A stretch of DNA of 60,010 bases, taken from positions 1-60,010 of the forward strand of contig NZ_WWJY01000167.1 in the NCBI RefSeq assembly GCF_009865405.1, in the 5' to 3' direction. Under the pieces are notes generated by a model. The model was not told where the DNA came from. It did no database searches and saw only the letters and a program-made list of their open reading frames with translations. Made by a program: the position numbers and the translations under genes. Below, piece by piece: positions 30,667-48,990 of this stretch. The stretch comes from Streptomyces sp. SID3212. Lineage in GTDB: Bacteria > Actinomycetota > Actinomycetes > Streptomycetales > Streptomycetaceae. Each line of letters opens with the position of its first letter. Position 1 is the first letter of the stretch.

Positions 30667-30709
30667 GAGGCCGTGGCGGGAATCGAACCCACGTAACTCG
30701 CTTTGCAGG
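30667..30709. other. attL core: 43-bp copy of the 3' part of tRNA-Cys
   Basis: These 43 bases are identical to 48918-48960. They cover the tRNA-Cys 3' end through the T-arm, the 3' side of the anticodon stem and the anticodon loop, but the rest of the tRNA is absent. This is the displaced original 3' end left by integration. Confidence 0.95.
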
Positions 30710-32643: not shown

Positions 32644-32653
32644 CTGAGGGGTG

Positions 32654-32701
32654 CATGACGAAGGGCGTCCTCCGACTTCAGGAGCGACGCCCTTCGTCAT
32701 G
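32654..32701 (+). terminator. Strong intrinsic terminator after the DGQHR gene
   Basis: CATGACGAAGGGCGTC (32654-32669) pairs perfectly with 32686-32701; an inner CTCC/GGAG pair extends the hairpin. Confidence 0.9.
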
Positions 32702-32995
32702 TAATGGGACGTCCCGCTACGCGGCATCTGCTCAACCAAGCGGCCCGCTAGACGGTCTAGGGTAGCTCTGGACCGCGGGCGAATGCGATGGAATCTGAGA
32801 CGGCCACGCGGTCTGCCATGGGCGCCGACCGTACCGAGGCTCGGGGTATCTGCATGTACTCGCCGCGTGGCGCGTGGCGGTGGTCGACCGCGATCGGCCG
32901 GTGGGTCTTCGACGCGGAAGGCAAGGGCCTGCGGCTCGCCTCGCCCCTGGCCCGCACTATGAGGCTGTCATCCGCCCTCCCAGCCGGCGAGTACC
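32702..32995. other. Junction region between the DGQHR gene and cargo, holding a Tra gene fragment
   Basis: About 290 bases have no convincing gene. They contain another TCTGAGACGG (32794-32803) like the end repeats and the 95-bp copy of tra described separately. An ORF running through it (32788-33162) has no other conserved content. Confidence 0.5.
32848..32942 (+). repeat. 95-bp exact copy of an internal tra segment
   Basis: The sequence is identical, base for base, to 41028-41122 inside the tra gene, in the same orientation. In tra it encodes residues 136-167 (ICMYSPRGAWRWSTAIGRWV and on). Both borders are sharp. It lies just before the lower-GC fkbM gene, so it may mark the junction where cargo joined the element. 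Confidence 0.95.
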
Positions 32996-33928
32996 GTGAT
33001 TGGCGTGACGCTCTCACTTACGCGGTCCGCCCTCGGCTTGGGTCGTTGGTACGTTCGCTACGTGCCGGGGACGCTCGGCAAGGCCCCCTTGATCGCGCGG
33101 TCCTTGAACGTCGGCCTACGGGAACAGCCACGGCATGCTGTGGCACGCACTGTCTTCGGTGACCGGTTTGCTGTCGATACGGTGGACTTGATCCAGCGTT
33201 TCATTTACATGTTCGGTGTGTGGGAACCGCACCTATCGCATTGGCTTCGGGCTCGCTTGCGGCCGGGCGACGTGTTCGTGGACGTTGGGGCCAACATTGG
33301 TTATTTCAGCGTTCTTGGGTCGCGGCTTGTTGGTGCGAGTGGAAAGGTCGTCTCGGTCGAGGCGTCACCTGAGTTTCACCGGCGGCTGCTTATTCAGGCT
33401 CATTTGAACGAGTGCGAGAATATTCGCGCTGTAAACTGCGGTGTGTCAGATAAATCGGAGACCTTGCGATTTACGCTCGCCAGCTCGCGGAATATGGGGG
33501 CAAATAGCATTGTGCCGTACGACGGCCCCATAGAATCCACTTTCGGAATCGATGCTCACCCATTGGCGGAAATCCTCACCAGCGAAGAAGTGGCCCGAAT
33601 TCGCGTCATGAAGATTGATGTCGAGGGCGCCGAAGGGGCTGCTGTAAGAGGTCTTCTTCCGATTCTCGACCATTTGCGGTCAGATGCTGAAATTGTGGTC
33701 GAGGTAACGCCCAGTCGAATGGCGGAACTCGGATATTCCGTTACGGAGTTGATCGACGCCTTCAAGGGGCGCGGTTTTCACGTATACCGGCTCGCCAATG
33801 ACTACGACGCATCGGCCTATCCGGCAACTCTCCGACGAGCCTCTCTAGCCCCTGTTAGGTGGCGCGGGCCGGTAGTGGAGGAAAGCGACCTGGTGTTCTC
33901 CCGGGTGGATGCTGACACTCTGCCCTGA
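32996..33928 (+). CDS. FkbM-family SAM-dependent methyltransferase
   Basis: The 310-aa product contains the SAM-binding motif GDVFVDVGANIGYFSVLGSR, VVSVEASPEFHRRLLIQ, and the FkbM signature RVMKIDVEGAEGAAVRGL. FkbM enzymes O-methylate sugars or polyketides. The first 60 residues are basic (LGRWYVRYVPG). Codon use is clearly AT-richer than that of the rest of the element (many ATT, TTT, GAT codons), a sign of separate acquisition. A CCTCGC-N5-GCGAGG hairpin at 33929-33945 follows the stop. Substrate unknown. Confidence 0.8.
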   Translation: MIGVTLSLTRSALGLGRWYVRYVPGTLGKAPLIARSLNVGLREQPRHAVARTVFGDRFAVDTVDLIQRFIYMFGVWEPHLSHWLRARLRPGDVFVDVGANIGYFSVLGSRLVGASGKVVSVEASPEFHRRLLIQAHLNECENIRAVNCGVSDKSETLRFTLASSRNMGANSIVPYDGPIESTFGIDAHPLAEILTSEEVARIRVMKIDVEGAEGAAVRGLLPILDHLRSDAEIVVEVTPSRMAELGYSVTELIDAFKGRGFHVYRLANDYDASAYPATLRRASLAPVRWRGPVVEESDLVFSRVDADTLP

Positions 33929-36298: not shown

Positions 36299-36303
36299 CA
36301 TGG

Positions 36304-36321
36304 AACTCCTAAGGAGGAGTT
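36304..36321. promoter_or_regulatory. Palindrome AACTCCT-AAGG-AGGAGTT between divergent transcripts
   Basis: A perfect 7+4+7 inverted repeat overlaps the predicted start site. It contains ribosome-binding-like AGGAG on both strands, so it could be an operator for the GntR protein or a translational element. Confidence 0.5.
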
Positions 36322-36338
36322 GAGGACAGGACCTCATT

Positions 36339-36428
36339 ATGAGCGTCTGTGGTCTCTCATTTATGCCCGCTCTCGCGGCTGGGTGTACCGAGCAAGCGCC
36401 CCGAGGGTCCCGCCAAGAGCGGGAGTGA
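36339..36428 (+). CDS. Possible 29-aa leader peptide
   Basis: An ATG after GGACAGG opens 29 codons (MSVCGLSFMPALAAGCTEQA and on) just before the boxB/boxA-like site. It has no recognised homology. Its position in the leader is suggestive of attenuation but it may be chance. Confidence 0.25.
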   Translation: MSVCGLSFMPALAAGCTEQAPRGSRQERE

Positions 36429-36433
36429 GCCCG

Positions 36434-36476
36434 AAGGAAGCGCTCGTTCCTTGAGAACTCAACAGAGTGCTTTGAG
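36434..36476 (+). promoter_or_regulatory. boxB/boxA-like antitermination site in the operon leader
   Basis: A small hairpin AAGGAA-GCGCTCG-TTCCTT (36434-36452) runs straight into TTGAGAACTCAACAGAGTGC (36451-36470) and TTTGAG. This is strikingly like the boxB-boxA-boxC region in actinobacterial rRNA operon leaders (TTTGAGAACTCAATAGTGTG type), which recruits Nus factors. No rRNA gene is near. A terminator-like hairpin follows at 36480. Confidence 0.6.
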
Positions 36477-36479
36477 ATT

Positions 36480-36498
36480 GACGGGGCTCGACCCCGTC
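36480..36498 (+). terminator. Terminator-like hairpin after the boxA-like site
   Basis: GACGGGG-CTCGA-CCCCGTC is a perfect 7-bp stem just downstream of the boxA-like sequence. Such a pair would allow conditional read-through into the operon. Confidence 0.5.
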
Positions 36499-36610
36499 CC
36501 CGTGACGGCCGGGTGAGGTCCGTCGGCCCCGGTATCCAGCCGCGAGGGCGCGGAGTCGACTTCCGCCCGGGGTCACGTGGCCCGCTGCGACGTGCGGCGC
36601 CGGCCCTCAT

Positions 36611-36670
36611 CTTCGGACGCGGCGGCACTCCCGGACAGGACAGCCCGCCGCGCCGAAGTTCCATCCCGAC
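36611..36670 (+). promoter_or_regulatory. AICE hairpin motif, copy 1
   Basis: CTTCGG, a bulged A and CGCGGCGG pair with CCGCCGCG and CCGAAG (14 bp) around the 19-base loop CACTCCCGGACAGGACAGC. ATCCCGAC follows at 36663-36670, then the ribosome-binding site and ATG 36689. See the finding on the four copies. Confidence 0.85.
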
Positions 36671-36688
36671 GCAGTCAGGAGTATTTGA

Positions 36689-37501
36689 ATGACCGAGCGC
36701 ATCATTCCTGTGGACATCGCCGGTCCGATCGCCCTGGACCTGACGATGAACACCGGCAGCATCCGCGTCGTTGTCGACTCCGCGCTGAAGCAGGCGCGCA
36801 TAGTGCTGACGACGGACGCCGCTTCCGGCCCGTCGGCCGACGCGATCCGCGACACCACCGTCAGCCTTACCGGACTGAACCTCAGGGTTCGCGTCCCGGA
36901 CGTCGCCGGCGGCGTCGGTGGCAGCACGACCATCCGCATGGGTGGCAACACCATGACGTTCTCCGGTGGCAACGGCGTGCAGATCGTCAACGGCAACGTC
37001 CACATCACCGGCCACGGTGGCGGCAAGGTCTTCGTCAACGGCCGCGAGGTCACCGCCACCGGTCCGGCCGGGGACGCGGTGACGCCGATCAGCGCCGTCG
37101 TATACCTGCCCAAGCTTTCGGTGGCCGCCATCAGCACGAACAGCGCGAACACCGTCGTCACGGGCTCGCTGGCCCGGTTGGAGTACGACGGCACGTCCGG
37201 GACGCTGACCGCTGAGCGGGTCGGCGACCTGGAAGCCACCGTCACCAGTGGCAGCGTCATCGTCGGCGAGGTGAGCGGTCCGCTGGACATCAACCTCACG
37301 TCCGGCAGCGTCAACGTCGGCGCCTACAGCGGCCACAACGCCCGGCTGAACCTCACCTCGGGCAGCGTCCGTATGGCCGCGACCTCGCAGGCCACGGGCC
37401 GTCTGTCCGTGAACGCCACCTCCGGCAGCGTCCGCGTCACCGGCGCCGGTCACCTGGACGTCCGCCGCCGGGTGACCAGCGGCCACGTGCAGATCAGCTA
37501 G
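36689..37501 (+). CDS. Beta-helix protein with TSGSV repeats (DUF4097-like)
   Basis: The 270-aa product is built of short beta repeats ending in TSGSV or SGSV (residues about 190-265: ATVTSGSVIVGEVSG, NLTSGSVNVGAYSG, NLTSGSVRMAATSQ, NATSGSVRVTGAG). This is the pattern of the DUF4097 putative-adhesin family, which forms a right-handed beta-helix. There is no signal peptide. It is the first gene of the rightward operon of the element, behind a long structured leader. Family members of this kind recur in AICEs; function unknown. Confidence 0.7.
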   Translation: MTERIIPVDIAGPIALDLTMNTGSIRVVVDSALKQARIVLTTDAASGPSADAIRDTTVSLTGLNLRVRVPDVAGGVGGSTTIRMGGNTMTFSGGNGVQIVNGNVHITGHGGGKVFVNGREVTATGPAGDAVTPISAVVYLPKLSVAAISTNSANTVVTGSLARLEYDGTSGTLTAERVGDLEATVTSGSVIVGEVSGPLDINLTSGSVNVGAYSGHNARLNLTSGSVRMAATSQATGRLSVNATSGSVRVTGAGHLDVRRRVTSGHVQIS

Positions 37502-37554
37502 CACCCGCCCCGGACCGCGCCCCTTCCCTTCTTCCGGACAGGAGTCCGCCGCCG

Positions 37555-38004
37555 ATGCCCGCTGCCACGTTCGCCGCCGTGTTCATCGCCCTGTACGTCG
37601 CCCACAGCGTGGGTGACCACTGGGTTCAGACCTCACATCAGTCCGCGCACAAGGGTCGTCCCGGTTGGGTCGGCCGTCTCGCGGATGCGCGGCACGTCGC
37701 CACCCTGACGCTCACCAAGCTGGCCGTGCTCATCCCGGCCGCCGCGCTGCTGGGACTGCACCTGACGGTGCCCGGCGTCGTTGTCGGCCTGGCGGTCGAC
37801 GCGGCCTCGCACGGGTGGGCCGACCGGCGCACCACGCTCGCGTGGCTGGCCCGGGTGACCGGCAAGGGCGAGTTCTACCGGCTCGGTGCCCCGCGCGCCG
37901 GCCGCGACGACAACCCGCACATCGGTACCGGCGCCTACGCGCTTGACCAGTCCTTCCATTACCTGTGGCTGCTGGTTGCCGCGCTGATCATCGCCTCTGT
38001 CTGA
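37555..38004 (+). CDS. DUF3307-like integral membrane protein
   Basis: The 149-aa protein has about four hydrophobic helices and conserved polar residues in membrane regions: FIALYVAHSVGDHWVQTSHQ, VVGLAVDAASHGWADRRT and YALDQSFHYLWLLVAALI. The H..GDhWvQ and D..FH patterns match DUF3307, small membrane proteins of unknown role found in Streptomyces mobile elements. The upstream bases TTCCGGACAGGAGTCCGCCG resemble the loop of the repeated hairpin motif and also supply the AGGAG site. Confidence 0.65.
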   Translation: MPAATFAAVFIALYVAHSVGDHWVQTSHQSAHKGRPGWVGRLADARHVATLTLTKLAVLIPAAALLGLHLTVPGVVVGLAVDAASHGWADRRTTLAWLARVTGKGEFYRLGAPRAGRDDNPHIGTGAYALDQSFHYLWLLVAALIIASV

Positions 38005-38015
38005 CCCCCGTTCTT

Positions 38016-38071
38016 CGCGGGGCGGTCGCACTCCCGGACAGGACAGCCGACCGCCCCGCGCCTATCCCGAC
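38016..38071 (+). promoter_or_regulatory. AICE hairpin motif, copy 2
   Basis: CGCGGGGCGGTCG pairs perfectly with CGACCGCCCCGCG (13 bp) around the same 19-base loop as in copy 1. ATCCCGAC follows at 38064-38071, then AAGGAGAG and ATG 38093. Confidence 0.85.
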
Positions 38072-38092
38072 GCATCCAAGGAGAGATCCACC

Positions 38093-38389
38093 ATGCGTAT
38101 GCGCATGTACGTCGCCGGCCAGGAAGCGCACGGCGACTTCGAGTTCGCGGAACTGGCGCTCGGTATCGACGTCGACCTGTTCCGGGGGTCGTTGGAGTTC
38201 GAGACGGACGGCGAGCGTGCCGCCCGTGAGGACGCGGCCCGTGACATCCTCGCCGACCTGCGTGCGGAGGCGGAGGCTGGTGACGAGGTCGCCGGTTGGG
38301 ACGCCCTGTACGCGGACGCGCTGACCCACACCATTCCGTTCCTGCGCTCGGTTCGCGCACACCGGGCGGGGACGGGGGAAGCGGCATGA
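38093..38389 (+). CDS. Small acidic AICE protein, unknown function
   Basis: The 98-aa product (MRMRMYVAGQEAHGDFEFAE) has a beta-rich start and an acidic helical C-terminus. I recognise no family. It is the first gene of a four-gene cluster with 4-base overlaps (ATGA with the next gene), directly behind hairpin copy 2. Confidence 0.65.
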   Translation: MRMRMYVAGQEAHGDFEFAELALGIDVDLFRGSLEFETDGERAAREDAARDILADLRAEAEAGDEVAGWDALYADALTHTIPFLRSVRAHRAGTGEAA

Positions 38390-39512
38390 GCGAGACCCGC
38401 AAGCCTCTGACGAGGATTCAGGTCGGTGTGCTGACGACGGCGTTCGTGCCGATGCTCGCTACGGGCGTGGTCGGCGGGATCGGCACGTACAGCAACATCG
38501 GTCACGCCTACGGCACGGGGACCGCGCTCGGTGCGCTCGGTGCCGGTGAGGGCGCCACGGCCGTTCTCGCCCTGGTCCTGCTGGGGCTGACCATGTTGGG
38601 CCAGTCCTCGCCGCGCGTCGTGCGGGCGGGACTGTGGGCCCTGCCGGCCGCCGCCGCCGTCATGGGCGCCATGGCCGCGCCGGACCCGGGCCGTACGGTC
38701 GTCTACGCGCTGACCCCGATGGGCATGTCCGTCTCTGCCGAGGGCATGGCCTTCCTCGCCCGCCGGATCGTCGTCCACACCGACGGCCGCGACGCGGAGA
38801 ACGAGCGGCACACCGCCGACATCGTGCAGGCCCTCGCCTACCACCGGGCGCGCGCCGCGCACCACCCGGTCGACCGGGTGCGGAAGCGTTCGGATCGGGC
38901 GTCGTGGCGTCTGGCCCGCAAGGTCGGGGCCGGGGACGCCGCCCTCGGATCGAGGCTGCTCGATGTCCAGCGGGACCGGATCACGGACGGGGCGGATGCC
39001 GCGCTCGCCTCGATGTTCGGCGGCACGACCCCCGTTCTCGCCCCGGTTCCCGACGTCGCCGCAAATGCGGAGGAATCGACTGGAAGTAGTCGAGAACGGT
39101 CTACCTCTGACCTGCGTGTATCGAGCACTCCCACGGTCCTGCTGACGCGGCTTGCGGTGCCCGATCCTGCGCCGGTCGATCTCGGAAAGTCGGGTATCGG
39201 CATGAAGCCGATGTACGCCGCCATTCCCATGGTGAAGCCGGTCCCGATCGCCCCGGCACCCTCCCGTCCGGTTCCCGCCGCGTCGACCGCGCCGCGCCGG
39301 GCGACGGGCCGCGTCCCGGTCGCCGCCAAGTCGACCCGCACCCGCCGCACTCCCGAACAGCTCATGGCGGAAGCGCGCAAGGCAACGGCCGGCCTCACGG
39401 ACGGCGAGGTGACCGGGGAGGGCATCCGCCGGGCCCTGCGCACCTCGCCCGCCAACGCCCGCAAGCTGCGTGACGCCCTGCTCGCCGAACGCGCCACCAC
39501 GGCGGTGACACC

Positions 39513-39516
<4 letters not shown>
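38386..39516 (+). CDS. Membrane protein with C-terminal DNA-binding-like region (DUF2637-like)
   Basis: Residues 8-135 contain four hydrophobic helices (VGVLTTAFVPMLATGVVGGI, ATAVLALVLLGLTMLG, AGLWALPAAAAVMGAMAA, SVSAEGMAFLA). A long Pro/Ala/Arg linker follows, and then a C-terminal helical unit (RTPEQLMAEARKATAGLTDG, GIRRALRTSPANARKLRDAL) that looks like a small helix-turn-helix. This layout resembles DUF2637-type proteins found in Streptomyces plasmids and AICEs, some annotated as transfer or spread proteins. It overlaps both neighbours by 4 bases. Confidence 0.6.
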
Positions 39517-40123
<607 letters not shown>

Positions 40124-40127
<4 letters not shown>

Positions 40128-40465
40128 GCACGCTGCCGGTTTTCCGGTGGCACCTCGCCCCGGACGGCTACGCCACCCGCCGCCAACTGCGGGCCCGCGA
40201 CCTGCGCCCCGGTGGGCAAGACGTTGCCGCGCAGCTCGAACGCCCCCGCCGGCGGGGGCGTCCGCCGCTGGTCGCCTATCTGTACCGCGTCGACCTCGCC
40301 CAACCGGTCCGGCCGATGACGCCGGGCCGGTGGCGGGCCCACGCCGCGATGATGCGCGCCCGCCGTACCTGCCCCGAGTGCCAACGGGACGCCGGATACG
40401 TCATCCCGCCCACGCTCGGGACCTGCGTGACCTGCGCCTATCCCGAAGAACAGCGCGCTGCCTGA
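40124..40465 (+). CDS. RRQRL-type zinc-binding AICE protein
   Basis: The 113-aa protein has YATRRQLRARDLRPGGQDV near the N-terminus, LVAYLYRVDLAQPVRPMTPG in the middle and two Cys pairs (CPECQRD and CVTC) near the end. This is the pattern of the RRQRL-motif zinc-binding proteins that accompany tra in Streptomyces mobile elements, here with RRQLR. It is the last gene of the overlapping cluster. The molecular role is unknown. Confidence 0.75.
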
Positions 40466-40470
40466 CCTGC

Positions 40471-40517
40471 GAGGGGTACAAACCGTACCCCTCCGCGAAG
40501 GGGTACGGACTGTACCC
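40471..40517. promoter_or_regulatory. Two operators before tra (GGGTAC-N5-GTACCC)
   Basis: GAGGGGTAC-N5-GTACCCCTC (40471-40493, 9-bp arms) and GGGTAC-N5-GTACCC (40501-40517) stand 27 bp centre to centre, 106-152 bases before the tra start. Identical half-sites and spacing suggest one dimeric regulator, most likely the GntR protein of the element, which would keep the potentially toxic translocase off in hosts already carrying the element. Confidence 0.7.
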
Positions 40518-40622
40518 GTTACCGCGCAGTAGAGCCCTCATCATCTCTGCACCGGGTCCGGCCGCCCGACCTTCCACAGCAAGCCGGCCGGACCCTTCGA
40601 CTCCCGAAGGAGTACGTACATC

Positions 40623-42851
40623 GTGACCGAGACGACCACGTTCACGCCCGCCGGGGACCCGGAGGGCGCCGAACAGCCGACGGCTGACATCGTGCCGTTC
40701 CCGCTGAAGAAGGAGACCGACTCCGACCCGACCGCCCCGGGTGAGGGTGTGGTGAAGCCGGGGGAGTGGGAGGCCGAACTCCCCGACACTGACGACCCGG
40801 AGGCCGAAGGGCTGAGCGAGGGGGCGCCGGTCGACCCGCCGCGCGAGGTCTACCCGCCCTCGGTCGCCGAATGGATGGAGGGCAAGGACAAGGCCCGTCT
40901 GCCGGTGCTGCCGGACTGGGTGAAGCTCCCTGACCAGCGCACGGCGGTCCGCAAGTGGGCCGTCCGGCACTACTCGGCCGTGGTCGGCTACCACGCGGTC
41001 CGGCTCCCGCTGGTCTACACGCCGAAGATCTGCATGTACTCGCCGCGTGGCGCGTGGCGGTGGTCGACCGCGATCGGCCGGTGGGTCTTCGACGCGGAAG
41101 GCAAGGGCCTGCGGCTCGCCTCCGTGGCCAACGAGGACGCGGCGGAGTACCTGAAGCTGTCCCGGCAGCGCAACGACCGCGTCCGGATGCGGGGGATCGT
41201 CGCGACGGTCGCCGGTTTCGTCGGTCTGGCCGCCGCGCTGACCCTGTACGTGATGGCGCCGTCGTGGCTGCTCATGCTGGCCATGGCGTCGCTGGCCACC
41301 ACCCTCGGTGTGGTGGGGGCGCCGGCGGACCGGCCGCTCATCGACCTGGCCAAGGTGACGTTCCGCAAGCGGAAGCTGTCGTCGGACATCGTCATCCGCG
41401 CACACGAGGCGTCCGGACTGACTACCAAGGATCAGACGATTGCCTTTCCGCGGCCGATCGGCCGGGACGGGGACGGCTGGCGTGTGGTCGTGGATCTCCC
41501 GTACGGCAAGACGTTCGAGGACGCGATGAAGGCTCACGCCCGTCTCGCCTCCGGTATGGACATCGCCCCCACTCAACTCTTTCTCGACAAGGACGAGACG
41601 AGCGGACGGCGGGTGTCGTACTGGATCGCCGACCGTGACCCGCTCGCCGTGCCGTCGGGCAAGTCGCCCTTGCTGGGAGCCACGCGGGTCGACTTCTGGA
41701 AGCCGTTCCCGTGGGGCGTGGATGAGCGCGGCAACCCGGTCATGGCCACCATGCTGTGGTTGTCCCTGCTGGTAGGCGCCGTGCCGCGCCAGGGCAAGAC
41801 GTTCTCCGCCCGCACGATCGCGCTCGCCGCCGCGCTGGACCCGTACGTGCGCCTGTACCTGTTCGACGGCAAGGCGTCGCCGGACTGGCGCAAGTTCGCG
41901 CTGGTCGCGCACCGCATCGGGTTCGGCATCGTCCCCAAGAACGGGATCGACCCAGTGGGGCATCTGCTCGCCTCCCTGCGGGAGTTGAAGGCGGATGTGG
42001 AGGACCGGTACCACCGGCTCTCGGAACTGCCCCTGCACGTCTGCCCCGAGGGCAAGCTCACCCCGGAGATCAGCCGGGACAAGAAGCTGAACATGCCCCT
42101 CACGCTGTTCGTGGTGGACGAGGTGCAGGAGTACCTGACCCACCCCGAGCACGGCAAAGAGATCCTGTCCCTGATGGTCTACCTCGCCCGGGTCGCCCCC
42201 GCCGTCGGCGTGTCCGTGATGACGGCGACGCAGAAGCCGGACGACAAGGCGTGCCCGTCAGAGCTGCGTGACCAGCATCAGGCCCGGTTCGCCCTGCGGG
42301 TCGGCGCCTACCAGGTATCGGACACGATCCTCGGTGCGGGGTCGTACTCGGAAGGGCTGGACGCGTCCAAGCTGCTCAAGTCCCACAAGGGTGTCGGTCT
42401 GCTCAAGGGCATGTCCGACGACTCCGGCATCGTGCGCACCTACCTCGCCGACGGCCGCGACGCCGAACGTGTCCTGACCCGGGCCGCCGCGTTGCGCGAG
42501 GCGGAGGGAACCCTGTCGGGCGACGCGGTCGGCGAGGTCCCGGCGGCGGAGACGTCCGCGACGATCCTTGACGACGTAGCGGCCGTCCTCGGCAAGGGCG
42601 AGGCCAAGGTGTGGTCGGAGACGATCGTGGACCGGCTCGCCGACCTGCGCCCGGACGTCTACGGCCCGTGGGCGGAGCTGGAGCCCAAGCCCAAGGCGGA
42701 AGCACTCACCGCCGCGCTCAAGCCGCACGGCATCGGCACGATGCAGATCAGCCGGCGCATCGAGGGCGAGCAGGTCAACAAGCGCGGCATCAAGCGCGAC
42801 GACATCGCCACTGCCATTACGCAGCGCAACCAGAAGCGGGACGCCGGATAG
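40623..42851 (+). CDS. tra: FtsK/SpoIIIE-type conjugative DNA translocase (TraB/TraSA-like)
   Basis: The 742-aa protein has an acidic N-terminus, two membrane helices (about 190-232), and a RecA-like motor with Walker A GAVPRQGKTFSART (from residue 385) and Walker B LFVVDEVQEYL (about 495). The C-terminal about 90 residues (VLGKGEAKVWSETIVDRLAD, LTAALKPHGIGTMQISRRIE) form a winged helix like the FtsK gamma domain, which in TraB proteins reads the clt repeats. It moves double-stranded DNA between mycelia. Residues 136-167 are encoded by the 95-bp segment duplicated at 32848. AAGGAG lies 10 bases before the GTG. Confidence 0.92.
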   Translation: MTETTTFTPAGDPEGAEQPTADIVPFPLKKETDSDPTAPGEGVVKPGEWEAELPDTDDPEAEGLSEGAPVDPPREVYPPSVAEWMEGKDKARLPVLPDWVKLPDQRTAVRKWAVRHYSAVVGYHAVRLPLVYTPKICMYSPRGAWRWSTAIGRWVFDAEGKGLRLASVANEDAAEYLKLSRQRNDRVRMRGIVATVAGFVGLAAALTLYVMAPSWLLMLAMASLATTLGVVGAPADRPLIDLAKVTFRKRKLSSDIVIRAHEASGLTTKDQTIAFPRPIGRDGDGWRVVVDLPYGKTFEDAMKAHARLASGMDIAPTQLFLDKDETSGRRVSYWIADRDPLAVPSGKSPLLGATRVDFWKPFPWGVDERGNPVMATMLWLSLLVGAVPRQGKTFSARTIALAAALDPYVRLYLFDGKASPDWRKFALVAHRIGFGIVPKNGIDPVGHLLASLRELKADVEDRYHRLSELPLHVCPEGKLTPEISRDKKLNMPLTLFVVDEVQEYLTHPEHGKEILSLMVYLARVAPAVGVSVMTATQKPDDKACPSELRDQHQARFALRVGAYQVSDTILGAGSYSEGLDASKLLKSHKGVGLLKGMSDDSGIVRTYLADGRDAERVLTRAAALREAEGTLSGDAVGEVPAAETSATILDDVAAVLGKGEAKVWSETIVDRLADLRPDVYGPWAELEPKPKAEALTAALKPHGIGTMQISRRIEGEQVNKRGIKRDDIATAITQRNQKRDAG
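41028..41122 (+). repeat. Source copy of the 95-bp repeat inside tra
   Basis: Identical to 32848-32942. Here it is an in-frame, functional part of the tra coding sequence, so it is the probable parent copy. Confidence 0.95.
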
Positions 42852-42863
42852 GTCTCGCAACCT

Positions 42864-42940
42864 GCTACCGGTAGCGGCGGACGTTGCTACCGGTAGCAAC
42901 CCTGCTAGCGACCCAAACCGCCCCTGATCAGGTCGCTAGC
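42864..42940. other. Palindrome cluster after tra, candidate clt/transfer-origin site
   Basis: GCTACCGGTAGC occurs at 42864-42875 and 42886-42897, the second inside the 18-bp perfect palindrome GTTGCTACCGGTAGCAAC (42883-42900). GCTAGCGACC (42904) pairs with GGTCGCTAGC (42931-42940) across CCTGATCAGG. This dense symmetry in 77 non-coding bases directly behind the translocase gene is where clt loci sit in several Streptomyces plasmids. A transcription terminator is the simpler alternative. Confidence 0.5.
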
Positions 42941-42992
42941 GCATAGCGGCCGACCTGCGGAAACCCCCTCCCACCCCCTGAGAGGCCCCCTG

Positions 42993-43244
42993 ATGAGCCT
43001 TGTCGCGCTCGCTGTCGCCTTCCTGCTGATAGTCACCCTCGGTTACGTCGTCAAGTGCTGGCTGAGCCCCTTCGGGGACTGCCGCAAGTGCGACGGCATG
43101 GGCCACGACTTCAAGACCGACCGCAAGGGCAAGACCAAGCGCGGCCGTGACTGCCGCCGCTGCGACGCCACCGGCAAGCGCATACGCATTGGCCGCTGGA
43201 TCTACAACCGTGCCGCGCGCACCTACCGCGCCGGCACCCGCTGA
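42993..43244 (+). CDS. Small membrane protein with DnaJ-like CxxC knuckles (Spd-type)
   Basis: The 83-aa product has one N-terminal membrane helix (LVALAVAFLLIVTLGYVVKC) and two zinc-knuckle motifs, CRKCDGMGHDF and CRRCDATGKRI, spaced like half of a DnaJ zinc domain. It ends in a basic tail. It is the first of four small genes between tra and rep, the place of spd (plasmid spread) genes. Confidence 0.65.
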   Translation: MSLVALAVAFLLIVTLGYVVKCWLSPFGDCRKCDGMGHDFKTDRKGKTKRGRDCRRCDATGKRIRIGRWIYNRAARTYRAGTR

Positions 43245-43261
43245 CCCCACCCGGAGGCCCC

Positions 43262-43456
43262 GTGGAAATCACCATCTCGCTCGTTGTGTTGCTCGCCGTC
43301 GTCGTCGTGCTGCTGCTGCGCTTCAAGGCCGTGGGCGCCGGTGCGGCCGTGGTTGTCGCGCTCTTCGGCTTCTACCTCGCTGGTACCGACGCGGCCGACA
43401 CCGTCAACCAGCTCGTCACCGACTTCACCCACGCCGTGCCCGGCATCGGCCGCTGA
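43262..43456 (+). CDS. Small hydrophobic Spd-like protein
   Basis: The 64-aa protein consists of two hydrophobic helices (ITISLVVLLAVVVVLLLRF, GAGAAVVVALFGFYLAG) and a short polar tail. GTG start after GGAGGCCCC. In AICEs, such proteins take part in intramycelial spread of the element. Confidence 0.6.
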   Translation: MEITISLVVLLAVVVVLLLRFKAVGAGAAVVVALFGFYLAGTDAADTVNQLVTDFTHAVPGIGR

Positions 43457-43476
43457 CCCCAAGGGAGACCAGCACC

Positions 43477-43944
43477 GTGAACGAACCCACCGCGTACGGC
43501 CGTCCGACCGGACACGAGACGGCGGCCGTCGAAGTCCACACACCCACCCCGATCGTCCCCGCCCGCACGGCTCCGCTCATGCCCGTACAGCCGGACACCG
43601 TCCCGACCGTGGCGACCATCGTCCTCCCTGACGGCCGCGTCGTCACCGGCTACGCCATCGAGCCCGCCCAGCCCGAACCGCTCGCCGCCAAGCCGGCTGT
43701 CTCGCGGGCGGTGGTGAACATCGCGCTCGGGGGCGTCGGGTTCCTCGCCGTGTGCGGCGGACTGCTCATGCTCACCGCGTTCATCACCGCCCTCACCGCC
43801 CTGATCACCCAACTCGTCATCCTCGCCGCCGTCATCTTCGGCGGCTGGATCGCCGTGCAGGTCTTCGGCGTGCGCGGCCACTGCGGCGGGACCACGGTCA
43901 ACATCCGCAAGGCCGTCATCAAGCGGAACAAGTTCTACGGCTGA
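43477..43944 (+). CDS. SpdB-like membrane protein
   Basis: The 155-aa protein has a Pro/Thr-rich N-terminus, two long hydrophobic helices (VVNIALGGVGFLAVCGGLLM, ITQLVILAAVIFGGWIAVQV) and a basic C-terminus (NIRKAVIKRNKF). This is the architecture of SpdB spread proteins, which partner TraB in moving plasmids across septa. GTG start after AAGGGAGA. Confidence 0.65.
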   Translation: MNEPTAYGRPTGHETAAVEVHTPTPIVPARTAPLMPVQPDTVPTVATIVLPDGRVVTGYAIEPAQPEPLAAKPAVSRAVVNIALGGVGFLAVCGGLLMLTAFITALTALITQLVILAAVIFGGWIAVQVFGVRGHCGGTTVNIRKAVIKRNKFYG

Positions 43945-43962
43945 TAAGGGAGTCCAACACCC

Positions 43963-44253
43963 GTGATCCGACTGCGCATCAAGGTCATTGACTGGCCGCG
44001 CCGCGCGCTGGCCCTGACCGACGCGCCCCGCCCGGACTGCCGTGACTGCGACGGCGTGGGTGGCATCCCGCACGACTACGGCCACCCCGAGACCGGCGAG
44101 TACGAGGGCACCGAGTGGGAGACCTGCCACTGCTGGACGGAGTGGCACATGGTTCTGCTGCCGCTCCCGCGCCGGCCCCGGTGGCTGCGCCGCCGTCACA
44201 GCGGCCGTGACCCGTGGGGGACCGGCGGCTACAGCGACGAACCGCCCTTCTAG
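43963..44253 (+). CDS. Small Cys-rich Spd-cluster protein
   Basis: The 96-aa product has CRDCDGVGG and, 30 residues on, CHCWTEW, a DnaJ-like split knuckle, followed by a Trp/Arg-rich tail (RRPRWLRRRHSGRDPWGTGG). GTG start after AAGGGAG. It is the second protein in this cluster with a CxxCxGxG-like knuckle. Function unknown. Confidence 0.6.
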   Translation: MIRLRIKVIDWPRRALALTDAPRPDCRDCDGVGGIPHDYGHPETGEYEGTEWETCHCWTEWHMVLLPLPRRPRWLRRRHSGRDPWGTGGYSDEPPF

Positions 44254-44259
44254 CTCTGC

Positions 44260-44320
44260 CCGTGGGCGGCGGCACTCCCGGACAAGGACAGCCCGCCGCC
44301 CACGGTCTCCGTATCCCGAC
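44260..44320 (+). promoter_or_regulatory. AICE hairpin motif, copy 3
   Basis: CCGTGGGCGGCGG pairs perfectly with CCGCCGCCCACGG (13 bp) around a 20-base loop that differs from the others only by one extra A. ATCCCGAC is at 44313-44320; AGGAG and ATG 44344 follow. Confidence 0.85.
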
Positions 44321-44343
44321 GTTGCAGACAGGAGACCTACAGC

Positions 44344-44439
44344 ATGACGCAACAGCGCGTTATCGGCGAGGACGCTTTCGCCCCTGCCACTCGAACGGGG
44401 CGAGTGCTTCGCTCACGTCCTCTGGATCTGCTCTCGTGA
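44344..44439 (+). CDS. 31-aa ORF coupled to the replication genes
   Basis: The ATG follows AGGAG and hairpin copy 3. It encodes MTQQRVIGEDAFAPATRTGR and eleven more residues. The stop overlaps the GTG of the prim-pol gene (GTGA). The strong initiation site and exact overlap argue for a translated leader that couples rep translation to the hairpin; no homology is recognised. Confidence 0.5.
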   Translation: MTQQRVIGEDAFAPATRTGRVLRSRPLDLLS

Positions 44440-45284
44440 ACGCGGCCACGAACACAGCGCGTGCCGCCCTCGCCCTCGCGGCGGCCGGTATCCCGGTCCT
44501 GCCCCTGCGGGCGGGAAAGGTACCGTTCGGTAACTGCCGTTCCTGCAAGGACGGCGCCTGCGGTGGGCGGCCCAACATGAAGTTGGCGGGCCCTTGCCGG
44601 TGCCCCGCGCCGTGCCACGCGTGGGCCGCCGCCACCACCGACCCGCACGTCCTCAACTCGCCCCAGTGGGGCGCCGCATGGCGGCAGGCGGCGGCGGTCG
44701 CCTACCACCCCGGAGGTGCCGGGCTGACCGTTGTCGACCTCGACAACGCGGCGGCCGTCGCGTGGGCCCGCGCGACACTGCCCGCGACCCGGACCGTGGC
44801 AACGACCCGGGGGGACCACTGGATCTACCGGGGCGCCATGCCCTCCGCCAACGCCGTACGGCCCGGGGTCGACATCAAGTCCCTTATGGCATACGCCCGT
44901 TGGCTCGGATGGGGCGTCGGCGCCATGGCCGCTCTCCCGGACTCTGTGCGCGCCTTGGCACTAACGGACCCCCCTCCGGCCCGCAGGGCGCCACAGGCCG
45001 TCTCAGTGCCCTTGGGGGGCGGGAACGGGGAGTGCCGACACCGTACGTCCGTGTTCCTGGATCGTGGCATTGCGATGGCGGAGCGGCAGATTACCGGCGC
45101 CCGGGAGGCGGTGCACGCGACTGTGTACCGGACGTTCCTCGCGGTGCTGGCCACGCACGGGCAGTGCGGCTGCCTCACCGACACGCACGTCGCCCGGCTG
45201 TTTGCCGCCGCGCAGGCCAAAGGCGAATCGCCCCGGCACTGCACGGACGCGTGGACCAACGCCCTCACCAGGTTGGGACTGTGA
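44436..45284 (+). CDS. Prim-pol (bifunctional primase/polymerase) replication protein
   Basis: The 282-aa product has the archaeo-eukaryotic primase core: AALALAAAGIPVLPLRAGKV, the catalytic Asp pair in LTVVDLDN (near residue 101), GDHWIYRG and GVDIKSLMAYARWLGWG. A Cys/His-rich insert (CRSCKDGACGG, CRCPAPCHAW, residues about 30-65) probably binds zinc. A C-terminal helical part (AVHATVYRTFLAVLATHGQC) follows. It should prime or initiate replication of the excised element together with the helicase gene 2 bases downstream. GTG start inside the stop of the 31-aa ORF. Confidence 0.8.
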   Translation: MNAATNTARAALALAAAGIPVLPLRAGKVPFGNCRSCKDGACGGRPNMKLAGPCRCPAPCHAWAAATTDPHVLNSPQWGAAWRQAAAVAYHPGGAGLTVVDLDNAAAVAWARATLPATRTVATTRGDHWIYRGAMPSANAVRPGVDIKSLMAYARWLGWGVGAMAALPDSVRALALTDPPPARRAPQAVSVPLGGGNGECRHRTSVFLDRGIAMAERQITGAREAVHATVYRTFLAVLATHGQCGCLTDTHVARLFAAAQAKGESPRHCTDAWTNALTRLGL

Positions 45285-45286
45285 CC

Positions 45287-46762
45287 ATGGCTGACGACGA
45301 GAAGAACCCGGCCCGCGAGATCATCACCGACTACGCGCAGTCCCACTTCCGGTACTTCCGTACGCCGGACGGGACCGTATACGCGCAGAAGAACGGCCAG
45401 CCCGTTGCCCGCCCGATCCGCTCCCAGGGCACGACCGGCAGTCACCGGCAGGAACTCATGGTCGGTCTCTTCCGCGACGGGCGAGGCGTGTTCAACGGGA
45501 CCGCGCTGAAAGAGGCGTTGGACCTGATCGAGGCGCTCGCGCTGTCCGAGGACGTGCAGCCCGTGCACATCCGCGTCGCCCCCGGATTCGACGGGGCGAC
45601 CTGGTTGGACCTGGGCCGCGACGACGGGCAGTCCGTCCGCATCCACCCCACCGGATGGGACATCGTCACTCCCAACCCGCAGGAGGTGTGCTGGCGGCGC
45701 ACCCAGCTCACCGGGGAGCTCCCTCTGCCTGTCAAGGACACGAACGGCAAGGGCATCGATCTGCTGATGCGGCTGTGCAACTTCGCCGGCGCGGAAACCG
45801 AGTGCCTGGCCATTGCGTGGCTGATCGGTTGTCTCGGTCCGTCCGTGCCCGTCCCCGCCCCGTTCCTCACCGGCCCCCAGGGCGCCGGGAAGTCCACGGG
45901 CGGCCGGATGCTCGTGCGGATCATCGAGGGCATGAGCGGTGATCTGCGCAGGGCCCCGAAGGATGAGGAGAACCTGATCGCGGCGGTGGCGGCCGGATGG
46001 GTCACCGCCCTGGACAACCTCTCGCACATGACGCCGGACCTGTCCGACGCCATGTGCTGCATCGTCACCGGGGCCGAGAGCGTCAAGCGCGCCCTGTTCA
46101 CCGACGGAGACGTCTTCCGCGTCGGCTACCGCCGCCCGCTGCTCCTGACCGGCATTGACGTCGGCGTCATCCGTCCCGACCTCGCCGAACGCCTCCTACC
46201 GCTCCGCCTGGAACGCCCCAAGGTGAGGCGGACCGAGGCCGAACTGTGGGCGGAGTACGCGGAAGTGCTGCCCGTCGTGCTCGGGTCCTTGCTGGACCTC
46301 ACCGTCAGGGTCCGCGCGGCGCAGGCGGAGACCCCCACCGACCTGCGGATGGCCGACTTCGCCCATCTGTGCGCGCAGCTCGATGCGGCCACCGGGCTCG
46401 GGGCTCTGGCCGCGTACCGGGCCAGGCTGGACGATCTGAACGACGACGTGATCGAGGGCGACCTGTTGGCACAGACTGTCCTCCGTCACGCCGAGACCAT
46501 CGAGCCGGGCACGGTGCAGCGGATGACGTCCACGGAGTGGCTCAGCTGTCTCAGTCGCTTGTACAGCGGCGACGACTGCCGCCCGCTGCCCAAGGGTTGG
46601 CCGACCACGGGCAAGGTGCTCTCCGACCGTCTCAAGCGCCTACAACCCACTCTCGCTGCCCGGGGCGTCCTCATCGACACGGGCCGCACCAGCGAGGGCC
46701 GATACCTGGAAATGACCCGCCCCGCCCCGGCGTCCCCACACGAGCAACAGCGGATGTACTGA
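45287..46762 (+). CDS. Replication ATPase/helicase partner of the prim-pol
   Basis: The 491-aa protein has an N-terminal domain of about 180 residues and an AAA+/superfamily-3-like ATPase with Walker A TGPQGAGKSTGG (from residue 196), Walker B-like WVTALDNLSHM (about 240) and a downstream arginine-rich segment (DLAERLLPLRLERPKVRR). The C-terminus has a winged-helix-like end (GKVLSDRLKRLQPTLAARGV). Primase and helicase are often one chain; here they are split into adjacent genes 2 bases apart. It ends at a terminator just before the iteron region. Confidence 0.75.
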   Translation: MADDEKNPAREIITDYAQSHFRYFRTPDGTVYAQKNGQPVARPIRSQGTTGSHRQELMVGLFRDGRGVFNGTALKEALDLIEALALSEDVQPVHIRVAPGFDGATWLDLGRDDGQSVRIHPTGWDIVTPNPQEVCWRRTQLTGELPLPVKDTNGKGIDLLMRLCNFAGAETECLAIAWLIGCLGPSVPVPAPFLTGPQGAGKSTGGRMLVRIIEGMSGDLRRAPKDEENLIAAVAAGWVTALDNLSHMTPDLSDAMCCIVTGAESVKRALFTDGDVFRVGYRRPLLLTGIDVGVIRPDLAERLLPLRLERPKVRRTEAELWAEYAEVLPVVLGSLLDLTVRVRAAQAETPTDLRMADFAHLCAQLDAATGLGALAAYRARLDDLNDDVIEGDLLAQTVLRHAETIEPGTVQRMTSTEWLSCLSRLYSGDDCRPLPKGWPTTGKVLSDRLKRLQPTLAARGVLIDTGRTSEGRYLEMTRPAPASPHEQQRMY

Positions 46763-46788
46763 CCCCGCCCCCACGCTCACGCGGACAA

Positions 46789-46833
46789 GCAAGAAGAGCA
46801 CCATCGCCCAGCCCGACGGGGTGCTCTTCTTGC
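46789..46833. terminator. Terminator after the replication genes
   Basis: GCAAGAAGAGCACC (46789-46802) pairs perfectly with GGTGCTCTTCTTGC (46820-46833). Confidence 0.85.
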
Positions 46834-46949
46834 TGTTCGGCGCCGTGCGCCGTGCCAAGGTCGCGCCGCGTAGCGGCACCTTCTTCACGTTCTGAGCGGC
46901 ACCGCACTACAGCAGACACCCCCTCTCTCTTTCCTAAGAGGGAAGACGC

Positions 46950-47166
46950 TGCGTCATCTGCGTCATGCGAGCCGGGAAACGGCCCCTGAGCTGCGGCTAC
47001 AGCCATGACGCAGACGGCCGTGCCTGCGTCATCCTGCGTCATCTGCGTCATGGGCTGCGTCACGGATGACGCAGCCCATGACGCACCCATGACGCAGGAC
47101 TCGCCTCCTGCGTCACTTAAAACCGCAGGTCAGAAGCCCGAATGACGCGGATGACGCAATGACGCA
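46950..47166. repeat. Iteron cluster: 13 exact TGACGCA/TGCGTCA heptamers
   Basis: Exact copies start at 46950, 46959, 47006, 47025, 47035, 47044, 47056, 47067, 47079, 47090, 47109, 47152 and 47160, in both orientations; near-copies lie at 47143 and 47188. Most extend to ATGACGCAG or its complement. Thirteen copies of a heptamer in 217 bases lie between the rep terminator and xis. The place and density suggest the replication origin or a site read by Tra or Xis. Confidence 0.9.
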
Positions 47167-47251
47167 GAAATCCGCACCTCGGACAGAGGCGTCATCCGCC
47201 ACCTCCGCAAGGCCCCCGAAAGTCCGCTCCTCGCCCCCTGGGAGATCTCGC

Positions 47252-47467
47252 ATGGACACGGCCCCTGCCGACGCATTCGACAACACCCTCGTACTGCTCA
47301 CGGTCGAGGAGGCGGCCCGCCGACTCCGCATCGGCCGCACCACGTGCTTCGCGCTCATCCGCGCCGGCGAACTGGAGTCCATCGACATCGGCCGTCTCCG
47401 TCGCGTCCCCGCAGACGCACCGGCCGCATACCTCGCCCGCCGACGTGCGGCCAAACGAGCCGCTTGA
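47252..47467 (+). CDS. xis: Excisionase (AlpA/MerR-like helix-turn-helix)
   Basis: The 71-aa basic protein carries LLTVEEAARRLRIGRTTCFA and LIRAGELESIDIGRLRRVPA, the winged HTH found in Xis proteins of pSAM2-like elements. It lies just before int, the standard xis-int order. ATG 47252 follows GGGAG; an upstream in-frame ATG at 47159 lies within the iterons and would add 31 unconserved residues. Confidence 0.85.
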   Translation: MDTAPADAFDNTLVLLTVEEAARRLRIGRTTCFALIRAGELESIDIGRLRRVPADAPAAYLARRRAAKRAA

Positions 47468-47473
47468 CCACGC

Positions 47474-47529
47474 CCGGGGCGGCAGCACTCCCGGACAGGA
47501 CAGCCCGCCGCCCCGGTCCCCATCCCGAC
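47474..47529 (+). promoter_or_regulatory. AICE hairpin motif, copy 4
   Basis: A 12-position stem (47474-47485 with 47505-47516, one A/C mismatch) surrounds the same 19-base loop as copies 1 and 2. ATCCCGAC is at 47522-47529, AGGAG and the int GTG at 47553 follow. Confidence 0.85.
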
Positions 47530-47552
47530 ACCCAAGAAACAGGAGCCTGCCA

Positions 47553-48836
47553 GTGGCAGAGGACAAGAAGAAGCGCACTCGCCAGCCCAACGGCCGAAGC
47601 TCGATCTACTTCGGTAAGGACGGCAAATGGCACGGCCGTGTCACCGTAGGCGTCCGCGACGACGGCTCGCCGGACCGCCGTCATGTCGAGCGCAAGACGC
47701 GCGCCGAAGTAACAGCCGCCGTAAGCGAGTTGGAGAAACAGCGTGACGCCAAGACCGTGCGGAAGCCCGGCAAGGCATGGACGGTCAAGGCGTGGCTGAC
47801 GCACTGGATCGAGAACGTCGCGCCCCTCGCGGTTAACGACAACACGATGGTCGGGTACGGCGTGGCCGTCCGGAAGCACCTCATTCCCGGCTTGGGGTCC
47901 CACCGTCTCGACAGGCTCAAGCCCGAGCACATCGAAGTGTTCTACGCCAAGATGCAGGCCAACGGCAGCAAGCCTGCGACTGCTCACCAGGTGCATCGAA
48001 CTTTCCGTACCGCGCTGAACGAGGCCGTGCGGCGCGGTCATCTCGGCAAGAACCCGGTTCAGTTGGCTAAGGCGCCGAAGACCGGGGACTACGAGGTGGA
48101 GCCCTACAGCGTCCAAGACGTTCAGCGGCTGTTGAAGGCCGCTGGCCAACGCCGCAACTCCGCGCGGTGGGCCGTCGCTCTCGCCCTCGGTCTGCGCCAA
48201 GGGGAAGTGCTGGCGTTGCAGTGGGTGGACGTGGACCTTGACGGCGGGTTTCTTGTGGTCCGCCGTAGTCGCCACCGTCCGCAGTACGCCCACGGGTGCC
48301 CCGAGCCCTGCGGACGCAAGGCCGCCGGGTACTGCCCGCAGAAACGCCGGATCAACCCGGAGTTGTCCGTCACCAAGTCGCGCGCCGGCCGTCGGGCGGT
48401 CGGACTTCCCGAACAGCTCGTTGACCTGCTCCGGGCCCACCTGAGGGCGCAAGAAGCCGAGCGCGGCGCGGCCGGGAAGCGATGGGAGGAGAACGGCCTG
48501 GTGTTCCCGGACGAGCACGGGCGTAGTCCGTCCCATCGTCGGGACTGGAGTGAGTGGAAGGTTCTCCTGACGGAGGCGAACGTACGGGACGGTCGGTTGC
48601 ACGACGCGCGCCATACGGCCGCCACGGTCCTGCTCATCCTCGGTGTCCCCGAGCGCGCCGTCATGGGTCTCATGGGGTGGTCAACCACGGCCATGGCCGC
48701 CCGGTATCAGCACATGGTGGACGCTGTACGGACCGACATCGCGCGGCAGGTCGATGGTCTGATCTGGAAGCCTGAGACGCGCCGGCCGGACGATGACGAC
48801 GACGGTGCGGCCGGGGCCCTGGTACCGGCCAACTGA
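47553..48836 (+). CDS. int: Tyrosine-recombinase integrase
   Basis: The 427-aa protein has the arm-binding N-terminus (GRSSIYFGKDGKWHGRVTVG), SAM-like core-binding domain (VKAWLTHWIENVAPLAVND) and catalytic domain with R in ALGLRQGEVLALQW, H-x2-R in LHDARHTAATVLL, W in MGWSTTAMAARY and the Tyr nucleophile in ARYQHM. A Cys cluster (HGCPEPCGRKAAGYCPQKRR) within the catalytic domain may bind metal, as in pSAM2-type integrases. It lies 82 bases from the att core and should integrate the element into tRNA-Cys. GTG start after AGGAG, behind hairpin copy 4. Confidence 0.95.
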   Translation: MAEDKKKRTRQPNGRSSIYFGKDGKWHGRVTVGVRDDGSPDRRHVERKTRAEVTAAVSELEKQRDAKTVRKPGKAWTVKAWLTHWIENVAPLAVNDNTMVGYGVAVRKHLIPGLGSHRLDRLKPEHIEVFYAKMQANGSKPATAHQVHRTFRTALNEAVRRGHLGKNPVQLAKAPKTGDYEVEPYSVQDVQRLLKAAGQRRNSARWAVALALGLRQGEVLALQWVDVDLDGGFLVVRRSRHRPQYAHGCPEPCGRKAAGYCPQKRRINPELSVTKSRAGRRAVGLPEQLVDLLRAHLRAQEAERGAAGKRWEENGLVFPDEHGRSPSHRRDWSEWKVLLTEANVRDGRLHDARHTAATVLLILGVPERAVMGLMGWSTTAMAARYQHMVDAVRTDIARQVDGLIWKPETRRPDDDDDGAAGALVPAN

Positions 48837-48853
48837 GACGGGAACTGAGACGG
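48832..48853. repeat. Right-end arm-type repeats ACTGAGACGG x2
   Basis: Two exact copies at 48832 and 48844, spaced 12 bp, overlap the int stop codon. A matching pair lies 116 bases inside the left att core (30826 and 30837). This symmetry is expected for integrase arm-binding sites. Confidence 0.6.
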
Positions 48854-48860
48854 ACCACTG

Positions 48861-48895
48861 AAAAGGGCGGCACCCCGGATGGGTGCCGCCCTTTT
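48861..48895 (+). terminator. Intrinsic terminator after int
   Basis: AAAAGGGCGGCACCC pairs perfectly with GGGTGCCGCCCTTTT around CGGAT, followed by CTTTT. Confidence 0.95.
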
Positions 48896-48917
48896 CTTTT
48901 GCCTGGTCAGGTCATTT

Positions 48918-48960
48918 GAGGCCGTGGCGGGAATCGAACCCACGTAACTCGCTTTGCAGG
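48918..48960. other. attR core within the intact tRNA-Cys gene
   Basis: Identical to 30667-30709. It spans from one base past the tRNA 3' end to the 5' edge of the anticodon loop, so the element rebuilds the tRNA when it integrates. Confidence 0.95.
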
Positions 48961-48990
48961 CGAGCCCCTGAACCACTCGGGCACACGGCC
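48919..48990 (-). tRNA. tRNA-Cys (anticodon GCA)
   Basis: Read on the minus strand, the 7-bp acceptor stem is GGCCGTG/CACGGCC, the anticodon stem is CTCGC/GCGAG with loop CTGCAAA (anticodon GCA at 48955-48957), the T-arm is GTGGG-TTCGATT-CCCGC, and the discriminator base is U, the Cys identity element. CCA is not encoded. Its 3' half is the integration site of the element. Confidence 0.95.

Follow-up and report, generated by a model that had tools for sequence, protein, structure and literature searches.

The control of actinomycete integrative and conjugative elements (AICEs) has been described through promoter-bound regulators such as KorSA and Pra. In pSAM2, these two provide element-wide control of replication, excision and integration genes, acting at promoters, and the word hairpin is absent from that paper (PMC8584621). 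Among RNAs, candidate structured cis-regulatory elements have been proposed on the basis of sequence comparison, some of them near integrase genes, such as STAXI (Weinberg 2010, PMC2864571), while the ANTAR-target RNAs of actinobacteria are leader hairpins with conserved loop positions that are read by a protein (PMC8164766). In single-stranded DNA, the primase sites ssiA and ssiB of RSF1010 combine a hairpin with a single-stranded tail (PMC4434180). Here we analyse a stretch of 60,010 nucleotides from Streptomyces sp. SID3212 (assembly GCF_009865405.1, contig NZ_WWJY01000167.1, positions 1 to 60,010 of the forward strand; hereafter the window), which holds an AICE of about 18.3 kb with hairpins of shared loop and downstream box in front of its replication, integration and accessory genes. 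A repeated leader element over such genes would add an element-wide layer of control after transcription.

Each member of the family stands roughly 35 nt ahead of a start codon and has a 12–14-bp GC stem, rather free in sequence but conserved in pairing, a loop of about 15–22 nt (core approximately CUCCCGRMCAAGGACAGY) and, shortly past the stem, a small box rich in C. Unlike the candidates of Weinberg 2010 (PMC2864571), the family has no match in Rfam 15 and occurs in several copies per element, which share a private loop. The ANTAR targets consist of two stem-loops with hexanucleotide loops having A first and G fourth (PMC8164766), whereas the present element has one long stem with a much larger loop. 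The inner loop of three window copies would read CGGACA if a 3-bp UCC-GGA helix forms. Leaders controlled by CsrA/RsmA carry GGA in a hairpin loop near the ribosome site. The present hairpins resemble them in this respect, but the CsrA family (PF02599) was found in 0/6 host genomes searched and in 3/14 control genomes, and CsrA was rejected as the factor. RSF1010 differs as well, having one ssi site per strand (PMC4434180), whereas several copies are present here, each before a start codon.

The initial annotation had reported four hairpins in the AICE, and their stems, loops and boxes were all recovered on the plus strand, beyond chance. Hairpin 1 (36611–36658, with a bulged A in its stem) lies in the leader of a DUF4097 gene (ATG 36689), and hairpin 2 (38016–38060) in that of a gene for a 98-aa protein (ATG 38093), which is followed by a cluster with a GGDEF gene. 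Hairpin 3 (44260–44305) precedes a 31-codon open reading frame (ORF; 44344–44439, ATG 44344) and then the Prim-Pol gene, and hairpin 4 (47474–47516, with one A-C mismatch) precedes the integrase gene (GTG 47553). The 19-nt loop CACTCCCGGACAGGACAGC is exact in hairpins 1, 2 and 4 (36626–36644, 38029–38047 and 47486–47504), and hairpin 3 carries one extra A in a 20-nt loop (44273–44292); at least three loop matches occurred in 0/100 shuffles of the window. The box ATCCCGAC starts 3–7 nt past each stem (36663–36670, 38064–38071, 44313–44320 and 47522–47529, plus strand) and is followed by a Shine-Dalgarno (SD) sequence, with box-to-start-codon distances of 18, 21, 23 and 23 nt. All four hairpins fold (z −2.85 to −3.56). 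A fifth hairpin with a different loop, CCCGACCTTCCACAGCAAGC, absent from the initial annotation, lies at 40554–40595 (plus strand) in the leader of a 742-aa traB-like gene (GTG 40623) and has the same position in other elements; this gene is without a Pfam match, and its label rests on a similar plasmid gene annotated FtsK. The weaker relative that had been proposed before the gene at 37555 did not hold up, for the segment does not fold (z 0.25); in four relatives (L158, L213, L217 and L227; L and G numbers are our labels for loci and genomes) a full hairpin precedes the same kind of gene.

The claim that the stem covaries around a conserved loop holds in two sets of copies. Pairing holds in 95.8% of the cells of 67 loop-defined copies, whose covariation score of 0.299 compares with 0.112 after shuffling and no more than 0.053 after sliding. 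The second set, 53 copies of 16 loci that lie outside the training rows, pairs at 94.0% and has changes on both sides in 12 of the 16 pairs; its score reaches 0.358, compared with 0.103 for shuffles and no more than 0.074 for slid versions, in an alignment that was fitted to the model, which favours structure, and against shuffles that keep relatedness in. None of these 53 copies is identical to a training row; L213, which has the same sequence as L011/L033 in the training sets, was excluded. The compensatory stem changes go beyond the controls, as in a covarying structured nucleic acid, and comparison of the copies establishes, at the level of sequence, selection on the pairing of the stem together with conservation of loop and box. 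A possible UCC-GGA helix inside the loop is 92.7% paired, but shows one change on both sides in set A8. The suggestion that copies might kiss through TCC-C-GGA was not borne out, the motif not being kept in other elements (loops CCTCCGACCAA, CTCTCGCCAAAG and CCATCCCGGCCAAGG).

The hairpins also keep a fixed position before start codons. The count covered 181 hairpins (194 rows minus 9 judged not to be the element and minus 4 doubles), with a start codon 25–45 nt past the stem in 158 and a plausible start within 300 nt in 174; random positions in the same loci had a start at 25–45 nt in 46/925 cases, and a plausible opposite-strand start lay within 75 nt in 22/181 hairpins. An upstream gene end was found for 171 hairpins at a median of 6 nt (5–95% range 2.5–397 nt), lying within 20 nt in 117 and more than 100 nt away in 35. 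Even among the 43 hairpins with a start for which the 100 nt upstream showed no gene end, 41 keep the distance of 25–45 nt. The place of the hairpin is set by the start codon that follows and not by the stop that precedes it, as is typical of a cis-regulatory leader. Because the distance to the upstream gene end varies widely, close gene packing does not explain the position, whereas a leader role does.

Loop and box follow the element in which they stand. In a first set, loops at different loci of one element have an identity of 0.93 (75 pairs: family A 53, B 15, C 5, F 1 and one other), versus 0.69 for the same locus across families (493 pairs), with 11 hairpins without the loop motif dropped, the traB-like gene kept apart, and a filter that favours motif-bearing loops alike within and between elements. 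The box segment behaves similarly (local score 9.75 within an element versus 6.4 between). In the 16 later loci, loop identity is 0.88 (73 pairs) versus 0.76 (1305 pairs), and 0.86 versus 0.76 when the family-A-like loci are removed, with 0/2000 label permutations as large in either case, the element labels here also tracking relatedness. In L214, the identical loop CCATCCCGGCCAAGGAAAAC stands on different stems in five of six matches, and L217, L218, L223 and L227 each have a loop variant of their own. Genome G058 holds three elements with loops A, F and D, and G366 three with loops A, C and another; because these co-resident elements keep different loops, the loop type belongs to the element and not to the host. 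Beside these, a separate hairpin loop (approximately TCATCCGCCAAGACA) recurs across different elements (L215, L218, L219, L220 and L227), three of its copies preceding a long ORF that starts MTEIINLDDHRP or similar.

The hairpin precedes the same genes in other Streptomyces. Its exact 19-mer loop was found in 47 stretches of genome contigs, 43 of them from Streptomyces, and the other four (L021 Frankia, L035 Rhizobium, L046 Lachnospiraceae and L047 Brachybacterium), which lack a matching stem, were taken as chance. Left out of set A2 were these four loci together with L014, which has no start codon, and L048, retrieved a second time; identical sequences are represented there by a single row. 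A model built from the 67 copies (R1) matched 20/150 Streptomyces genomes at E ≤ 0.01, its weaker matches being mostly relatives with altered loops and a few false ones. In the own genome (7.98 Mb) it matched the four window hairpins at E ≤ 1.4e-11 and one further place at E 0.29, matches that are not independent evidence since R1 was built partly from the window copies. Model R2, which adds the changed-loop relatives, matched 59/392 Streptomyces genomes (E ≤ 0.001), 62/297 Streptomycetaceae genomes in 11 of 17 genera, and 9/296 Actinomycetes genomes (E ≤ 0.01), eight of these nine being Streptomyces, in samples that overlap and with part of the R2 matches inspected; the ninth (G574), a palindromic hairpin with a short loop, was judged unrelated.

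None of the databases searched lists the motif. None of the 4227 Rfam 15 families matched the hairpins at gathering cut-offs in the window and eight relatives, where the matches were tRNA only in the window and tRNA and SRP RNA only in the relatives; the best over the hairpins at E ≤ 10 was asX6 only, on the minus strand, with 21.1 bits versus a cut-off of 50. IMG/VR gave 0 exact loops, phages gave no megablast match to 36300–48900, and a literature search with a 16-base piece of the loop returned none; the motif was likewise undescribed in further search listings, whose scope leaves aside subscription papers and preprints. Taken from sequence, the hairpins are a real and widespread leader element with element-specific loops, outside Rfam, whose pairing and position are well shown. 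They can serve as sequence markers by which element families are sorted, and they offer a direct route to the proposed factor.

As to function, we give roughly even chances to the reading that the hairpins are a family of 5'-leader regulatory elements of AICEs, acting in mRNA and read by an element-specific trans-acting factor. The hairpin would act within the mRNA, and one such factor would read loop and box and set translation of the genes behind. The replication leader offers a possible route. Its SD region GGAGACC (44331–44337) is complementary to GGTCTCC (44304–44310, plus strand), an anti-SD strand that overlaps the last two bases of hairpin 3, so that hairpin and SD helix would compete at the foot. 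This strand is predicted to close the ribosome site by default, and binding or refolding at the foot would switch the gene. In replication leaders at large, the SD has a predicted unpaired probability of 0.06, against 0.24 when linkers are shuffled, and falls below control in 19/22. The SD/anti-SD helix also covaries between elements: among 16 leader types, chosen and typed by us, the genuine partners match each other better than exchanged partners do (permutation p 0.0009). In traB-like leaders the SD is predicted to be unpaired at 0.17 versus 0.32 (below control in 22/24); that of the window lies in a hairpin ACTCC-CGAA-GGAGT (40600–40613, plus strand; predicted 0.00 versus 0.29 in controls). 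Hairpins lacking the loop motif and repeated leaders were dropped from the calculations of unpaired probability.

A more specific version, tentative but a serious candidate, holds that each AICE lineage has a private address: the same loop and box before replication, integration, excision and accessory genes, read by the lineage's own RNA-binding factor, whereby elements in one cell would be controlled separately after transcription. The per-element loops would then be a naturally occurring collection of distinct recognition pairs in actinomycetes. The initial annotation had proposed one trans-acting factor for the whole element; such a shared factor has become likelier, since the genes of an element have changed their loop and box in concert, while the factor was not found. 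Loop and protein similarity were compared by rank correlation in 41 elements, as far as each has the protein, with all values confounded by relatedness and linkage. The highest correlation is that of the DUF3987 protein (0.65, 15 elements; family by Pfam), followed by the integrase (0.49, 35 elements), the RRQRL zinc protein (0.46, 27) and, moderately, the 98-aa protein (0.43, 38); the ~250-aa protein found before Prim-Pol in relatives gives 0.02 (14 elements). The 98-aa protein has no match in Pfam or NCBIfam and a mean AlphaFold2 pLDDT of 76.4; it is present in 15/15 family-A and 3/3 family-B elements and in 24/40 loci overall, some partial, and as a factor it was set aside, its variants not sorting cleanly by loop. 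The RRQRL zinc protein was rejected because it was not found in A_L151, A_L155, A_L157 and A_L158 despite their A loop, and an antisense partner because no loop-complementary stretch of at least 10 nt recurs across the 15 family-A elements.

Several observations weigh against a loop read in mRNA by one factor. No tested protein family is both in all elements and closely tracking the loop, the lowest correlations including Prim-Pol (rho 0.21, 26 elements) and the TraB-like protein (0.10, 35 elements). In many elements a hairpin precedes the gene of the 98-aa protein, but no hairpin of L214 does, though L214 loops are uniform, and this protein has no fold match in the PDB at E ≤ 0.001. Closure of the SD is not general: there is none on average in integrase leaders (unpaired 0.45 versus 0.38, below control in 3/13) or in leaders of the 98-aa gene (0.26 versus 0.23, 8/20), the SD is slightly less unpaired in DUF4097 leaders (0.09 versus 0.13, 4/6), and it is not below control in the single DUF3307 leader (0/1); in traB-like leaders (18 types) the SD/anti-SD covariation is not significant (p 0.10). 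The loops of traB-like hairpins stand apart, with an identity of 0.62 to the remaining loci within an element (55 pairs) and of 0.58 to one another across families (261 pairs), and in L169 the hairpins before the integrase and the 98-aa gene have unrelated loops. Stems in the later loci follow the element weakly (0.76 versus 0.73; 36/2000 permutations as large). Finally, pairing that matters in RNA should leave more G-U than A-C mismatches; in the inner ten pairs of 176 distinct copies, G-U occurs 33 times and A-C 34 times, so that G-U is not tolerated above A-C as in an mRNA leader, a result that speaks against the RNA reading or at the least fails to support it. Taken by itself, family A has 28 G-U versus 15 A-C, and the distinct cases within families A and B number 20 versus 11, in a family-wise count that left out 8/9 family-C rows and three family-A rows with shifted stems.

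These mismatches, being symmetric, would suit hairpins that act as single-stranded DNA, perhaps as sites where the element's primase-polymerase starts priming or replication, in the manner of ssiA, a hairpin with single-stranded flanks that is read by RepB' of RSF1010 (PMC4434180). The window element encodes a Prim-Pol, and the joint change of loop and box per element would be expected here too; yet the start codon stays at its distance without a close upstream gene end (41/43), and Prim-Pol, rejected as the reader, follows the loop weakly, which leaves this explanation unlikely, if worth keeping in view. We judge equally unlikely a reading in which the hairpins serve a single long operon as signals for transcription or processing (terminators, pause sites or RNase sites), with readthrough assured by a block at 36394–36470 (plus strand), upstream of hairpin 1. 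In a local alignment to L175, a locus that continues into a 16S gene, this block resembles the 16S rRNA leader of its own genome. The 15-mer core of this block has five other copies in the genome, all in 16S leader context, one of which reaches a 16S gene within 200 nt, and an exact 10-mer of the core lies upstream of the first hairpin in 8/15 family-A elements, that of the window among them. Antitermination complexes of rRNA operons assemble on signals in the leader (PMC10250234), and the block suggests one long antiterminated transcript, which is how the notion that the hairpins act on transcription arises. Gene ends close upstream (117/171) fit it, as do GC stems without the loop motif at two such places in L169; it is countered by upstream gene ends more than 100 nt away (35/171), by the lack of any T-run after the four window stems, as an intrinsic terminator would have, and by the conserved loop and box, which such signals do not require.

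A further explanation, with a still smaller share of our belief, is that the copies are duplicates of one ancestral leader per element, alike by descent and without a common reader. Duplication would give the loop identity seen within elements, and the slightly greater likeness of stems within elements in the second set points the same way; but in the first set the 5' stem arms are barely more alike within an element than between families (0.79 versus 0.76), so that whole copies have not been homogenised, and each gene position retains its characteristic stem type from species to species. Least probable is an operator for a DNA-binding protein in duplex DNA, which the conserved core and the symmetric mismatches would allow, but for which a stem that changes in sequence while staying complementary is not needed.

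The host element is bounded by a 43-bp exact direct repeat at 30667–30709 and 48918–48960, the left and right attachment repeats, the second copy lying within a tRNA-Cys gene (48918–48990, minus strand). The stop of the 31-codon ORF behind hairpin 3 overlaps a possible GTG start of the Prim-Pol gene. This ORF is probably a remnant, because it matches the beginning of the ~250-aa protein that occupies the same position in relatives; the label cytosine methyltransferase is not supported for that protein, for which Pfam finds nothing at E ≤ 1. The circular record L169 (NZ_CP107792.1, 18451 bp), filed as a plasmid, contains the kind of genes that such elements have, an integrase among them, and carries hairpins without the loop motif before the integrase and the 98-aa-like gene; from its gene content it could be an AICE in excised form. 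The stretch 46949–47160, upstream of the small gene (47253–47467) that precedes the integrase, holds TGACGCA-type repeated units and a perfect 19-bp inverted repeat. Cargo within the element (31378–33928) encodes a DndB-like protein and an FkbM-type methyltransferase, and in this region an exact 95-bp repeat of a piece of the traB-like gene (32848–32942 = 41028–41122) is perhaps the leftover of another element.

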